Origin: a virus
Length of the DNA stretch: 36,428 nt
Virus record (IMG/VR): IMGVR_UViG_3300017527_000099
Location: 1-36,428 of that record
Strand: one strand, 5' to 3'
Shown here one piece after another: positions 8,072 through 32,419 of this stretch. How positions within the stretch are numbered: position 1 is the first letter of the stretch; every line of letters begins with the position of its first letter. The notes below the pieces were generated by a model. The model had not been told where the DNA came from. It was given only the letters and a program-made list of their open reading frames with translations, and did no database searches. The position numbers and the translations under genes were made by a program.

Positions 8072-8235
8072 ATCTCTTTAATTTTATAAATGTATTCGTA
8101 TTTTGCTTTCCATCCATCGGGATAGGTTATTTCGTAATCTTCTTGTATATCTCTAATTAACTTAACTCGACGTTTTAGATCAGCTTCTGTTGTAAAGAGT
8201 AGTACCTGGTTATCTGTTTTTAGTTTGTATTTCAA
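8068..8235 (-). CDS. Small hypothetical protein with TTG start
   Basis: A 55-residue frame filling the gap between the ABC-GNAT gene and the Cys-rich gene. It starts at TTG 8235, two bases into the stop region of the upstream gene, and ends in an ATGA overlap with the next. Product: KYKLKTDNQVLLFTTEADL, then YEITYPDGWKAKYEY. The tight overlaps on both sides support it. Function unknown. Confidence 0.55.
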   Translation of the reverse strand: MKYKLKTDNQVLLFTTEADLKRRVKLIRDIQEDYEITYPDGWKAKYEYIYKIKEI

Positions 8236-9371
8236 AATATTGATATTTGATTTTGTGCTACTTCTTTATAAGCATCAGCATTAAACATAATTACATCGCT
8301 GCTATCTAAACTTTTAATACCTGTATATTTATAACTATAACTTGGACGAAACATAATTTTTCTTCCACTATTATCTTGTCCCGGTGTTTTTAAATGTCCA
8401 GCAGTTTGTGACCAATTACTATCTCTATCAAGTGCAATTCCTAAAGCTGGATTCATAGTTCTAATAAACATTTGATGTTTTTCTTTCCAATATAAAGCAC
8501 TAATATAATTAACTATTTCTTTTCCTAATCCTAATCCTTGAAAATCAGGTAAAACGACAATTCTGCTTATGCGTCTTGTTTTCGTATCGCCTACGCCTGG
8601 AAATGGCAATATTCCTACAAAAGCTATTGGTTTATCACTCCATAAAAAAACATAACATTGAGCTGCTTTGTTTAAATCTTCTGTTAAATAATGATGTTGT
8701 TTGAATATATTCCAAGTTTCATATCTACATCGAAATATCTGTAATTGAATTTTTGGTCTTTGCCTTCGACTTGACGCTCTTTCAAGACGCCCTTTTAATG
8801 GTGAATAAATCCAATCTGGCAATAACCATTCCATAATATCAAAATGACAAGACGCAAGTATTATTTTTTTATTTGTTCTTCTTATGTATTTTTGTAATGC
8901 GTTACTCATCGCTTTCGCTACATCTCTATCAACTACACTTGTAAACTCATCAATCAATATAACATCATTTTCAGACGCTTTGCCAACTTTATAAGCTAAA
9001 GATGCTCTATATTGTTCACCATTACTTAAAAGTGCGTAAGGTCGCAACCAAGTGGGTACAGACGCTAATCCCATAGCAGATAATAAAAACGTGGCTTCTT
9101 TAGGCTCTAACCAATCAAAATTACTTATTAATGGTTTTTCTAAATCAAATACATCTTTAGTTAAGTTGCCAAATTCTTTTAATAAAGTTGTTTTACCAGT
9201 TCCAGAGCCACCGTAAATAACACCAATATTCCAATCAAATGTTTTACATTCGCTAAAGTTGATTGGTATTTTAACAGAAGTTTCTTCTTTGTTTTGAATA
9301 TCAAATGCTTCATACACATATTCAGTATATTTATCATTAATTATTTTATTTTTTCGCTCTATGTATTTCAT
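8232..9371 (-). CDS. ABC-type ATPase fused to a GNAT acyltransferase domain
   Basis: 379 residues. The N-terminal half is a complete single ABC ATPase: Walker A GGSGTGKTT (54-62), signature-like LSNGEQ (115-120), Walker B VILIDEFTSVVD (137-148) and switch His in ASCH (H166). The C-terminal half is a GNAT fold with acyl-CoA loop VVLPDFQGLGLGKEIV (Q278-G283) and a later RTMNPALGIALDRDSNW. There is no membrane domain, so this is not a transporter. The GNAT fold also includes the Mu Mom DNA-modification enzyme; a nucleic-acid-modifying role here, near a cytosine methyltransferase, is my inference. A protein target is equally possible. It overlaps the HNH gene by 26 bases. Confidence 0.8.
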   Translation of the reverse strand: MKYIERKNKIINDKYTEYVYEAFDIQNKEETSVKIPINFSECKTFDWNIGVIYGGSGTGKTTLLKEFGNLTKDVFDLEKPLISNFDWLEPKEATFLLSAMGLASVPTWLRPYALLSNGEQYRASLAYKVGKASENDVILIDEFTSVVDRDVAKAMSNALQKYIRRTNKKIILASCHFDIMEWLLPDWIYSPLKGRLERASSRRQRPKIQLQIFRCRYETWNIFKQHHYLTEDLNKAAQCYVFLWSDKPIAFVGILPFPGVGDTKTRRISRIVVLPDFQGLGLGKEIVNYISALYWKEKHQMFIRTMNPALGIALDRDSNWSQTAGHLKTPGQDNSGRKIMFRPSYSYKYTGIKSLDSSDVIMFNADAYKEVAQNQISIF

Positions 9372-9726
9372 CGTTTAGTTCTTGTAGTAGTAATTCCTTT
9401 TCAAATTTAAACAATTTACTCGTGGTATTAGCTTTTATTCTTAATAAATTCATAAACTCTTCACCTTTTTTATAGTATAACCATTCTGTAAATTCTACTG
9501 GAGTTTTATGAGCTGAAAACTTACTACTGAAAACATGATGAGCCACACATAAACAAACTCCATTTTTAACGTGCCACCTTGTACTCTTTTTGGATCGACT
9601 GTAAATATGATGACTGTTTAGTGTTGTTGTCTTACCACAATATTCGCATTTCATTCCTGCTCGTATCTTTACAAGTTTGCTCCAGGCTTCATCTAATTTG
9701 CCTTCTATACCTTTTCTACGCTTCAT
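9346..9726 (-). CDS. HNH endonuclease
   Basis: 126 residues. Zinc and HNH residues are visible: CEYCGK (C27, C30), the SHHIYSRSKK His pair (H39, H40), then CLCVAHH (C58, C60, H63, H64). The second half is a helical region that may bind DNA. The gene lies in the recombination and DNA-modification block, not beside the terminase, so it is more likely a recombination or homing-type nuclease (NinG-like in position) than a packaging HNH. Specificity cannot be told. Confidence 0.8.
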   Translation of the reverse strand: MKRRKGIEGKLDEAWSKLVKIRAGMKCEYCGKTTTLNSHHIYSRSKKSTRWHVKNGVCLCVAHHVFSSKFSAHKTPVEFTEWLYYKKGEEFMNLLRIKANTTSKLFKFEKELLLQELNDEIHRAKK

Positions 9727-14853: not shown

Positions 14854-14957
14854 AACCATTCTTTAAAACCGTATCGGATTATCATATAAGTAATAAGTAC
14901 AGAATAAACCAATAAGGAAATTAATAATACTTTTAATTGTCTGTTAGTGAATTTCAT
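14850..14957 (-). CDS. Tiny single-pass membrane protein
   Basis: 35 residues with a hydrophobic centre (LKVLLISLLVYSVLITYMII). Its ATG lies within the end of the first early gene, and its stop overlaps the next ATG. Function unknown. Confidence 0.5.
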   Translation of the reverse strand: MKFTNRQLKVLLISLLVYSVLITYMIIRYGFKEWL

Positions 14958-15093
14958 TAATTTGTTGTTCAAGGATTGATAGTTTAAATTCTGTGAAATC
15001 TGATATTCTACCAGAACCTACTTCTCGATTATAAACATTATTCCATCGTTCTAACTCAATGTTTAATTCTTCTAAATGTGTAAAAGGTTTCAT
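14944..15093 (-). CDS. First early-operon gene, small hypothetical protein
   Basis: 49 residues (MKPFTHLEELNIELERWNN, then SDFTEFKLSILEQQINEIH), helical. It is the first frame after the leftward early promoter at 15115-15146, with a leader of about 15 nt. No motif recognised. Confidence 0.55.
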   Translation of the reverse strand: MKPFTHLEELNIELERWNNVYNREVGSGRISDFTEFKLSILEQQINEIH

Positions 15094-15114
15094 AATATTA
15101 GTTTTAATTATACC

Positions 15115-15146
15115 GCAAGATAGTAAATAAAAATGTTAACAACAAA
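15115..15146 (-). promoter_or_regulatory. Leftward early promoter
   Basis: TTTG (15146-15143) is followed after 20 bases by TATCTTGC (15122-15115), near the Bacteroidota TTTG-N19/20-TAnnTTTG pattern with one mismatch shift. The spacer region holds a TGTTAACA palindrome (15134-15141), a possible operator. It lies in the 111-bp gap between divergent genes and heads the chain of early genes. Confidence 0.5.
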
Positions 15147-15180
15147 GAAAAGTTTATTTTTTTATTAAATTATTTTTAGT

Positions 15181-15188
15181 TACTTTTG
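15181..15188 (+). promoter_or_regulatory. Rightward promoter -7 box of the XRE gene
   Basis: TACTTTTG matches TAnnTTTG exactly and lies 16 bases before the ATG at 15205. No good TTG is seen at -33. It is divergent from the early promoter, so the HTH product could bind the shared region. Confidence 0.5.
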
Positions 15189-15204
15189 TATAAAATATAA
15201 AATT

Positions 15205-15411
15205 ATGAATTTAGTATCAATAGGAGAGTACATAAAACTAACCAGGAAAAAAGCAGTTCTAACTATTAAAGAGTTGTCTTTGATTTCTGGAGTATCAGAA
15301 CCAACGATTCACAAAATAGAGAAGGGTAAAAGCGTGAATTTAGATAAATTAGCAAATGTTTGTGATGCTCTACATAAAAGAGTTGATGTGAGAGTTTGGA
15401 ATAAAAGATAA
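15205..15411 (+). CDS. Small XRE-family HTH regulator
   Basis: 68 residues, nearly all one XRE HTH domain: IGEYIKLTRKKAVLTIKELS, then LISGVSEPTIHKIEKGKSVNL with the canonical turn and recognition helix. It ends VRVWNKR. It has no peptidase or dimerisation domain, unlike CI/LexA repressors, so it may act as a Cro-like or autoregulatory protein. It is one of only two plus-strand genes and stands at the divergent control region, facing away from the early operon. Its stop codon TAA is part of the first palindrome (15409-15458), so gene and palindrome may form one unit. Confidence 0.85.
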   Translation: MNLVSIGEYIKLTRKKAVLTIKELSLISGVSEPTIHKIEKGKSVNLDKLANVCDALHKRVDVRVWNKR

Positions 15412-15458
15412 CGGTTTGGCTATGCGCCTGTACTTTGTATGGCGTATAGGTTGTGTTA
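15409..15458 (+). repeat. attC-like palindrome 1, after the XRE gene
   Basis: Outer TAAC (15409-15412) pairs with GTTA (15455-15458). Inner CTATGCGCC (15420-15428) pairs with GGCGTATAG (15441-15449), nine pairs with one G-T, around a 12-base loop. The outer and inner stems are separated by unpaired bases. This layout, with short TAAC/GTTA end boxes directly behind an ORF, resembles integron attC sites, though the boxes do not fully match RYYYAAC / GTTRRRY. It shares GGCTATG and ATAG with the second palindrome. Confidence 0.6.
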
Positions 15459-15488
15459 GCATTAGTACGGATTATTAAAAACAGAATT

Positions 15489-15776
15489 ATGAAATACAAT
15501 TTACCAATAGATTACACAAAACTGCATTGGACTGAACGCAGACAAGTTAGAGAACAATATATTGAAGAACAAGAGCATAAATGTTATTACTGTGGATGCA
15601 GTTTAAAAGAAGTTGCACCAAAACACATAATGGATAAAAATATAAACTGGAAATTATTTCCTGAAAACTTTTTAAAGTACCCAATACACTTGCAACACAA
15701 CCACGATACAGGAATGACAGAAGGTGCGGTGCATAACTATTGTAATGCAGTTATGTGGCAATATGAAGGACGATAG
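15489..15776 (+). CDS. Endonuclease VII-like HNH nuclease
   Basis: 95 residues from the ATG at 15489; a GTG at 15453 is in frame but lies in the palindrome. Zinc ligands begin with CYYCGC (C32, C35). The core LQHNHDTGMTEGAVHNYCN carries the Endo VII pattern DHDHxTGxxRGxLCxxCN with N in one Asp place and one ligand changed (VHNYC for LCxxC). Such enzymes cut branched DNA or act as homing nucleases. The gene is the second of two plus-strand genes, enclosed by two related palindromes and by an inverted repeat (15451-15467 and 15777-15793, 16 of 17 bases matching), which suggests it moves as a unit. Confidence 0.8.
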   Translation: MKYNLPIDYTKLHWTERRQVREQYIEEQEHKCYYCGCSLKEVAPKHIMDKNINWKLFPENFLKYPIHLQHNHDTGMTEGAVHNYCNAVMWQYEGR

Positions 15777-15785
15777 TATTAATGC

Positions 15786-15830
15786 TAACACAAAGCTATG
15801 TTTCGTTTTAATGAAATATAGCAACTGTTA
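15786..15830 (+). repeat. attC-like palindrome 2, after the HNH gene
   Basis: Outer TAACA (15786-15790) pairs with TGTTA (15826-15830). Inner GCTATGTTTC (15795-15804) pairs with GAAATATAGC (15813-15822), ten pairs with one G-T, and an 8-base loop. The layout and the GCTATG/ATAG inner arms match palindrome 1. No T-run follows on either strand, so it is a poor terminator candidate. Confidence 0.6.
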
Positions 15831-15851: not shown

Positions 15852-16736
15852 TTAACTTATAAAATTCTTATACGCTGAATTACTAATATTGTAGTTTTGA
15901 CCACATGAGTTACATTCCATTACTCTTGAAATAGTACCTTTTTCAGTAACATCGTTTTTAAGTAGTATCAAATCTTCAGAGTTTCCACAAATAGGACAAC
16001 TATATTTTTCATTTCCTTTATGTACTCCAGCGTGAGTATTTGGTTTTACATAAGGTTGTAATGCATAGTAAACGTCTTTTAATACAATTATATCCATATC
16101 ACAATATTTAACCATATCTTTCAATGCTTGTTTATCTCCATCTAAACATTTAACCCACATATCAAATCCCTCATGCTCTAATTTTGCACCTACGCCTAGA
16201 AATTTAGCAATGTAATCTAATCTATTAGAATTAAAAGAAAAGCCACCACGTGCTTTTTTAAGCGTGTCTAATGTTCTGTATTTAGGAAACATTGGTATTC
16301 TGTGATAGATGCACCTGGTACGTATTTTTTTAATATCAAATCTATCTCCATTATGTGCAATGATCTCATCTGCTGTATTTGCTAATTTAATAAAGTCTAT
16401 TAGCATTTTTTTATCGCATTGGTTCTTATCCCATGTTAAGTTATGTACTTTATCAGATCCGTTCCAGGAATAGCTTATACAAATAATCTTCCAATCCTGT
16501 ATTATATTATCGTAAGGCAAGTTAATCTTCCAACCTACACGCCAACTGTAAACGATCATTGGTGAGGTTTCTATATCAAAAAACAACCGTTTTATAGGTT
16601 GCTCCATTGATAAATTAAAATACTTTTCTATTTGTTTTTTTGATAACCGGTAGCGTTGCCCTTTATTTGGTACTAGACCAATTTTACGAGCAGTATAATC
16701 GTTCATTCGATAACGATTACTTTTGTTTTTTCTCAT
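15852..16736 (-). CDS. DEDD-family 3'-5' exonuclease with C-terminal zinc ribbon
   Basis: 294 residues. ExoI motif FDIETSP (D54, E56), ExoII HNGDRFDIKK (D131 or D134), ExoIII YCDMDIIVLKDVY (D213/D215) fit the RNase H-like DnaQ/DNA polymerase B-type exonuclease superfamily. No polymerase domain follows. The C-terminus has a zinc ribbon, CPICG (247-251) and CNSCG (275-279), probably for nucleic-acid binding. The basic N-terminus includes KNKSNRYRMNDYTARKIG. It is the last gene of the late transcript, far from the early DNA genes, convergent with the HNH cassette. It could trim ends or process DNA at packaging; target not shown. Confidence 0.82.
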   Translation of the reverse strand: MRKNKSNRYRMNDYTARKIGLVPNKGQRYRLSKKQIEKYFNLSMEQPIKRLFFDIETSPMIVYSWRVGWKINLPYDNIIQDWKIICISYSWNGSDKVHNLTWDKNQCDKKMLIDFIKLANTADEIIAHNGDRFDIKKIRTRCIYHRIPMFPKYRTLDTLKKARGGFSFNSNRLDYIAKFLGVGAKLEHEGFDMWVKCLDGDKQALKDMVKYCDMDIIVLKDVYYALQPYVKPNTHAGVHKGNEKYSCPICGNSEDLILLKNDVTEKGTISRVMECNSCGQNYNISNSAYKNFIS

Positions 16737-31995: not shown

Positions 31996-32419
31996 TTATT
32001 TTTAACTCTAAACGCATCAATTTACGGTAAACTACTTCGTCATCCGTTACCTCGTTAAACTCATTTAGAAAGTTCTGTTTTTGCTCTATTACGGTTAATC
32101 CACCTGTTAATACTAAATCATTTGTTAAGTTTCTAACCGAATCCATTATATCATCTGCTAGCTGTTTGCTTCCTGGATTACCTGGTCGTTTATACCTCGT
32201 CACAACATCTAAAAGAATAGATGAATCCCATAAATCCTCACACTTATTAAAATCCTCAACTAAATTGGTTTGTGTACTCATTAGAATATAATGGTCTGGA
32301 TCTGTAACACCGGAAACTCTATAAGTAAAACAGTTAATGGTTTCATCTGAAACTGTAATGCCATTTAAAACAGCTTGTATTGCCTTTCTAACGTATTTAT
32401 CTGGTAATGTCTTTTGCAT
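31991..32419 (-). CDS. Tail completion/terminator protein
   Basis: 142 residues, start MQKTLPDKYVRKAIQAVLNG. Strands include FTYRVSGVTDPDHYILMSTQ and SSILLDVVTRYKRPGN, then EQKQNFLNEFNEVTDDEVVYRKLMRLELKI. The fold order and place between the HK97 gp10-like gene and the tube protein fit the tail terminator ring (DUF3168-like). It overlaps the preceding gene by 23 bases. Confidence 0.72.
   Translation of the reverse strand: MQKTLPDKYVRKAIQAVLNGITVSDETINCFTYRVSGVTDPDHYILMSTQTNLVEDFNKCEDLWDSSILLDVVTRYKRPGNPGSKQLADDIMDSVRNLTNDLVLTGGLTVIEQKQNFLNEFNEVTDDEVVYRKLMRLELKIK

Follow-up and report, generated by a model that had tools for sequence, protein, structure and literature searches.

The closest described relatives of the locus reported here are clusters of attC sites without an integrase (CALINs) that have been published for virulent phages, above all those of Polaribacter phage P12002L (NC_028924; PMC9892861). 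That survey reported 17 CALINs among 10,705 genomes, and one of two tested P12002L attC sites was recombined by IntI1 into attI1 in E. coli (PMC9892861). Sedentary chromosomal integrons, such as those of Vibrio and Xanthomonas, share with the Bacteroidota arrays described below their tandem cassettes, R boxes, a G|TT cut, and an array anchored at a tyrosine recombinase. The insertion specific to IntI is thought to be necessary for reading folded attC sites. T4-type PeSL cassettes likewise have stem-loops between small exchangeable phage genes; to our knowledge, complementarity of cassette ends, an attI site, and a recombinase are not part of the PeSL model. Among Bacteroidetes proper, IntegronFinder 2.0 reported one complete integron, in Salinibacter ruber (PMC9024848).

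Here, we describe a block of this kind in a virus record of 36,428 bases, analysed over its whole length and called the window below. The record has phage terminase, portal, and ERF genes, and the minus strand carries nearly all of its genes; a plus-strand block at positions 15205-15830 runs from an XRE gene through a hairpin (P1) and an EndoVII-like HNH gene to a second hairpin (P2). Sequence comparison makes it highly probable that the two hairpins serve as attC-like sites for recombination in an integron-like system of Bacteroidota and that the HNH gene they enclose is a mobile cassette. Since attC clusters are already known in phages, the P12002L sites are akin to these, and S. ruber has the only complete integron that IntegronFinder 2.0 reported for Bacteroidetes proper, we file the block as a small CALIN-like remnant; what appears to be new is an enzyme without the IntI insertion and the inverted cassettes in phages. 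The sections of the phage CALIN study drawn on here do not describe a Bacteroidota family, the start and end rule, the inverted phage polarity, or a non-IntI recombinase (PMC9892861). We found no description of Bacteroidota cassette arrays with a non-IntI recombinase in the openly licensed PMC literature, a scope that leaves out bioRxiv, and an earlier description outside that literature is possible.

Two related hairpins in a plus-strand block

The XRE/HTH_3 gene (15205-15411, plus strand, 68 aa; Pfam HTH_3, E 1.8e-7) ends in a TAA stop codon that is overlapped by P1, of which it forms bases 1-3. P1 (15409-15458, plus strand) has the layout TAAC-GGTTTGG-CTATGCGCC-loop-GGCGTATAG-GTTGT-GTTA, with the outer boxes at 15409-15412 and 15455-15458 and a conserved G.T pair in the stem. 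The HNH gene (ATG at 15489, stop at 15776, plus strand) encodes a 95-aa EndoVII-like endonuclease (phrog_14729; Pfam Endonuclease_7, E 9.5e-6), and P2 (15786-15830, plus strand) begins 9 nt past its stop, with the layout TAAC-ACAAAG-CTATGTTTC-loop-GAAATATAG-CAACT-GTTA and outer boxes at 15786-15789 and 15827-15830. A DnaQ/RNaseH-like exonuclease gene (15852-16736, minus strand) adjoins the block and is convergent with it. P1 and P2 have in common the outer TAAC/GTTA boxes, unpaired spacers, and a stem of the form CTATG.../...TATAG, and they are two copies of one hairpin type. The spacers of P2 deviate from the family consensus, and P1 is a near-consensus site.

The initial annotation had seen two related palindromes of one design behind the XRE and HNH genes and had proposed a covariance-model search, which bears the observation out. 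A model (R1, from alignment A3) built from 19 hairpins, all from genomes other than the window, scores exactly these two sites when run over the whole window: P1 at 56.7 bits (E 4.7e-15) and P2 at 25.8 bits (E 1.8e-5). No third site was detected in the window with this model, the next best score being 13.1 bits (E 0.16). The 19-site alignment has 25 cells altered on both sides of the stem, a count reached in 0 of 500 shuffles, and one G.U pair is retained in 16 of its 19 rows. At this conserved position, a left G faces a right T instead of the pairing C in 44 of the 48 sites from chromosomes and 97 of the 116 from phages, an asymmetry that would be unnecessary in a plain terminator and that a site read with polarity could need. 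Folding energies of P1 and P2 are just modestly below those of shuffled sequences (z about -1.2 to -2), which is too weak to serve as proof, so we do not take them as the evidence for the hairpins.

The architecture is of attC type, an imperfect palindrome with two box pairs, an unpaired spacer, and a variable terminal part. Against the attC box consensus RYYYAAC/GTTRRRY, the hairpin family is invariant, and matching, in AAC/GTT only, in keeping with the partial fit noted in the initial annotation; GTTAGCA of P1 and GTTATAA of P2 agree partly with the R box consensus. A CALIN is defined by at least two attC sites within 4 kb and no integrase nearby, and P1 and P2 lie 377 bp apart in a record with no PF00589 match. 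The P12002L sites belong to the same broad hairpin family, and the TCGTTTTAATG loop of P2 is also found in them; like the block in the window, they are attC-type sites without an accompanying integrase, here in a lytic Bacteroidota phage (PMC9892861). P12002L has more family hairpins at 32223-32281, 38035-38090, and 38879-38936 (minus strand), near methyltransferase and Mom-like genes.

Hairpins of this family are widespread. The left 16-mer of P1, TAACGGTTTGGCTATG, occurs in at least 119 viral-contig stretches; most of these matches extend into the hairpin design with differing variable middles and neighbouring genes, and a minority are chance matches. A stricter pattern for the whole site has 46 matches in genome contigs, of which almost all carry the label Bacteroidota or Balneolota, and a related hairpin pattern occurs in 9 of 296 Bacteroidota genomes, compared with 0 for the reversed control. 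The genes between such hairpins are of all kinds, with many methyltransferases and unknowns. The expectation that the palindromes would be found behind unrelated open reading frames elsewhere is thus borne out in many Bacteroidota phages and chromosomes.

Complementary cassette starts and ends

A relation that escaped the initial annotation joins the two hairpins: the right edge of P1, GTTAGCATTA (15455-15464, plus strand), and the left edge of P2, TAATGCTAAC (15780-15789, plus strand), form an exact 10-nt inverted repeat. The two flanks of P1 do not match each other, and neither do those of P2. The rule suggested by this pair is that a cassette begins with GTT-R and finishes with rc(R)-AAC. 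We tested it on hairpins picked without regard to their flanks, taking R5 as the five bases past the closing GTT. A copy of rc(R5)+AAC lies within 1.5 kb downstream of 75 of 105 viral hairpins and upstream of 5 of 101; permuted flanks gave a mean of 8.3 and a maximum of 15 among 300 permutations. Chromosomal hairpins have a downstream partner in 20 of 41 cases and an upstream one in 2 of 43 (1.9 expected from permutation). The downstream partner is mostly the left box of another hairpin, frequently one with a different inner sequence. Pairing of the outer flanks within a single hairpin was rejected as a candidate, own-flank pairs being seen in 6 of 116 phage and 1 of 48 chromosomal sites.

Judged from these sequences, the complementarity is of the kind that integron cassettes should show, since the circular form brings their two ends together. 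If a cassette passes through a circle in which its start joins its end, a complete hairpin site would form there only when a GTT-R start meets an rc(R)-AAC end. In the window, the matching boxes and the lack of PF00589 agree with the earlier proposal of an integron-type cassette in a phage without an integrase, and for the HNH gene we retain it. The proposed two-cassette array does not hold: no hairpin lies upstream of the XRE gene, and GTTATC, the sequence that would partner the left box of P1, is absent from 14900-15409. XRE was therefore rejected as a second cassette; it is better regarded, from its sequence context, as a resident neighbour whose cassette status is not demonstrable.

Exchange in related phages and the probable mobile unit

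The HNH gene is also a cassette in one related phage sequence, L189 (91% identical over the part present), where a different hairpin precedes it and the array is longer; further relatives of the gene (L183-L188 and L190-L195) are plain genes without hairpins. Homology between the window and L189 begins at G|TTAGCATTAG. This is one example of a sharp exchange point, another being that between L082 and L092, at which a shared cassette is preceded by unrelated DNA and homology starts from G|TT. In related phages, the point of exchange is thus placed at G|TT (AA|C when read from the opposite strand) within an ambiguity of 7 nt. We found no close relative of the window phage with an empty site; its relatives carry other genes beside the exonuclease gene.

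Cultured Flavobacterium phages of the Muminvirus group are near-identical outside an array that lies close to the same exonuclease gene as the block in the window. A 506-bp unit is present in mumin6-1 and absent from mumin6-3, tooticki6-1, and mymlan6-2; a 476-bp unit is present in hattifnatt9-1 and absent from sniff9-1; and filifjonk9-1 has an additional unit of about 412 bp at the constant end of the array. The flanks of these units are 99.6-99.9% identical, the junctions of all three fall at TAAC, inside a common TAACGTT core where one exists, and the box rule is obeyed exactly in 3 of 3. What is gained or lost in each case is a hairpin together with its downstream gene, and pairs of long cassettes that are at least 98% identical likewise have the upstream hairpin in common and not the downstream one. 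The classic unit of a gene plus its downstream hairpin, the "ORF plus attC" of the initial annotation, is contradicted by these near-identical pairs, and a phage gene appears to travel with the hairpin that precedes it. By analogy, the mobile unit of the window would be P1 plus the HNH gene (15412-15788, plus strand, cut at AA|C), with P1 as the hairpin belonging to that gene; the classic alternative, HNH plus P2, would span 15456-15827 (plus strand, cut at G|TT). More diverged pairs, the window and L189 among them, conflict with a hairpin-upstream unit, having the gene in common and not the upstream hairpin, and for this reason hairpins may also be swapped.

The exchanged units of the cultured phages sit among DNA methyltransferase genes, and one methyltransferase is reported to go with plating efficiency on a second host in Flavobacterium phages (PMC7077304); together, these two points raise the possibility that the system sets phage host range. 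In Baltic Flavobacterium phages (L169, L170, and L362-L367), the array genes differ, and many are DNA methyltransferases.

Recombinases beside the arrays

No PF00589 recombinase was found in the window, in the Muminvirus-group phages searched, or in P12002L, and neither the window nor any of 47 virus records with arrays has canonical IntI. These 47 hairpin-bearing records, many of them fragments, include only two (G079 and G082) with a tyrosine recombinase of any kind, and each time its gene directly follows the array. These two viral arrays (L357 and L358), each with its own IntI-like recombinase of 267-270 aa at the array end, are apparently self-sufficient integron-like elements of phages.

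Among 44 genomes with a chromosomal hairpin, canonical IntI is found in two, both Balneolaceae, and most of the 44 encode an enzyme whose match to the IntI profile is split into two blocks, with the part between them missing. Canonical IntI was rejected as the enzyme of the arrays, with 0 of 397 Flavobacteriaceae positive at E 1e-60, in a search that had no positive among its own controls and took the two Balneolaceae genomes as its positive control. Box I and box II are spaced 100 aa apart in true IntI, compared with 53-65 aa in the IntI-like enzymes and 66 aa in most XerC/D. In a tree of 46 enzymes, the array-adjacent ones group with IntI (100/99), apart from Bacteroidota XerC/XerD, and the phage enzymes group with L352, which itself adjoins an array. 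The likeness to Xer/XerA-type recombinases lies in the solved structures closest by sequence, which are archaeal XerC-like/XerA and Vibrio IntI4. Taken together, the alignments and tree suggest a recombinase that is related to IntI and lacks the IntI-specific insertion. The initial annotation had offered a different Bacteroidota mobile-palindrome family as an alternative to integrons, and this is partly right: the recombinase does lack the insertion, but it is a relative of IntI.

The strict hairpin pattern gave one weak match within 1-2 kb of IntI-like genes; arrays near these genes were found with wider windows and a pattern-free detector. Over 503 kb surrounding IntI-like genes, this detector found 44 chained cassettes; over 424 kb surrounding the XerC/D genes that these genomes also encode, it found 0. 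The presence of the hairpin had been the criterion for choosing these genomes, so a second test used an even sample of genomes across the phylum, in which 6 of 20 enzyme regions (17 cassettes) were positive compared with 1 of 19 control regions (2 cassettes); the genome of the single positive control also has an array beside its IntI-like enzyme. All six replicate arrays (6/6) have a uniform polarity relative to the recombinase gene. No chained array was found with this detector in 14 of the 20 IntI-like regions, and the family may therefore have other roles as well. The enzyme occurs in 44 of 118 sampled Bacteroidota genomes.

Chromosomal chained arrays beside IntI-like recombinases, a combination that many marine bacteria have, are seen in Tenacibaculum and others (L286, L287, L289, L290, L291, L312, L351, and L372-L389), where the recombinases are about 280-390 aa long and the longer ones have an extra N-terminal domain. 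One Balneolaceae genome (G021, locus L282) has chained cassettes in its canonical IntI region. It also encodes the IntI-like enzyme, and a GCTATG-type hairpin lies at a distance of 4 kb from that gene.

Array ends and gene polarity

A terminal box was identified in nine arrays. Each of these terminates 42-118 nt from the recombinase gene, where the place of a hairpin is taken by an AAC box with AT-rich sequence after it (roughly AAC-N5-DATA); we call this terminus attI-like. The constant end of the Muminvirus arrays, AACTACAATATTACATG, resembles it. The window has no clear attI-like end after P2 and one weak candidate, AACTTATAAAATTCTTATACGC (15854-15875, plus strand), which follows a 27-nt geneless unit and has a 2-base gap in the box match. 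Unlike sedentary integrons, the Bacteroidota arrays have a recombinase that lacks the IntI insertion and is mostly convergent with the anchored array end.

We scored polarity with the hairpin oriented AACG...TGTT. Chromosomal cassette genes lie on the strand opposite to the hairpin and point away from the recombinase or attI-like end (38:2 and 17:0), the classic direction also seen in sedentary chromosomal integrons, and four chained cassettes near canonical Balneolaceae IntI point the same way. Phage cassette genes point towards the attI-like end (117:4), so the classic trait of genes directed away from attI is found in the chromosomal arrays and not in the phages; the window block is of the phage type. 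Phages and chromosomes do not differ in the side of the hairpins on which the attI-like end lies; they thus share a type of site and differ in the direction of the cassette gene. The open reading frame begins within the preceding hairpin in 53 of 117 phage cassettes, which, together with the gene direction, suggests that read-through from phage promoters, and not a promoter at attI, probably drives the transcription of phage cassettes. Such an internal start, seen in many phage cassettes (L006, L054, L083, and L104), makes the right arm of the hairpin part of the encoded protein, as in ...KALHIAxV...

Mechanism and alternative explanations

In the mechanism that we favour, a recombinase would fold one DNA strand at the hairpin, and the folded strand would then recombine with another hairpin or with an attI-like end. 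The window phage has no recombinase, which implies that its sites either would depend on an enzyme supplied in trans by the host or a co-infecting phage or are now fixed. Fixation is the core of a narrower form of this explanation, whose probability overlaps with that of the broader one: the cassette would be genuine but dead, immobile without a compatible recombinase. We regard this as a real possibility that falls somewhat short of even, given that the window has a single cassette, no recombinase, a diverged P2 (25.8 bits), and no clear attI-like end; against it, the 10-nt match of start and end boxes is intact, P1 is near-consensus, and cultured relatives that likewise have no recombinase have recently gained and lost units.

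An explanation without site-specific recombination would be that the hairpins are mobile regulatory stem-loops of the T4 PeSL kind, acting as terminators or processing sites, while the genes are shuffled by homologous or single-strand-annealing recombination. The hairpins are indeed intergenic, the window phage encodes an ERF annealing protein, and most array-bearing phages have no tyrosine recombinase, but the junctions fall on a core of 4-7 nt instead of being spread over the hairpin, start and end complementarity is a property of the gene unit and not of the hairpin, and arrays terminate at an attI-like box beside a recombinase, which together make this account improbable. Still less credible, to the point of being hardly tenable, is homing by the HNH nuclease, which would move its own gene with the hairpins as its targets or as marks of resistance: EndoVII-like HNH genes are widespread in phages, but the hairpins are absent at most HNH relatives, and the hairpins and box rule surround all kinds of genes, so that nuclease-free cassettes contradict it.

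Arrays that follow the cassette rule beside insertion-less enzymes would show another way to build an integron, one that may resemble the ancestral transition from Xer enzymes. Such arrays would be missed by standard integron detection because it demands the IntI domain. On balance, we lean towards the view that Bacteroidota harbour a widespread and overlooked class of integrons with IntI-related recombinases that lack the insertion, and that their phages hold a parallel, gene-reversed pool of cassettes, a reservoir from which early genes, those for anti-restriction among them, can be exchanged.

Other genes in the window

On the minus strand, the window encodes a second HNH protein, NinG/Rap-like, at 9346-9726 (phrog_5034), and a 379-aa open reading frame at 8232-9371 with an ATP-binding-like N-terminal part and a C-terminal part resembling GNAT acetyltransferases.
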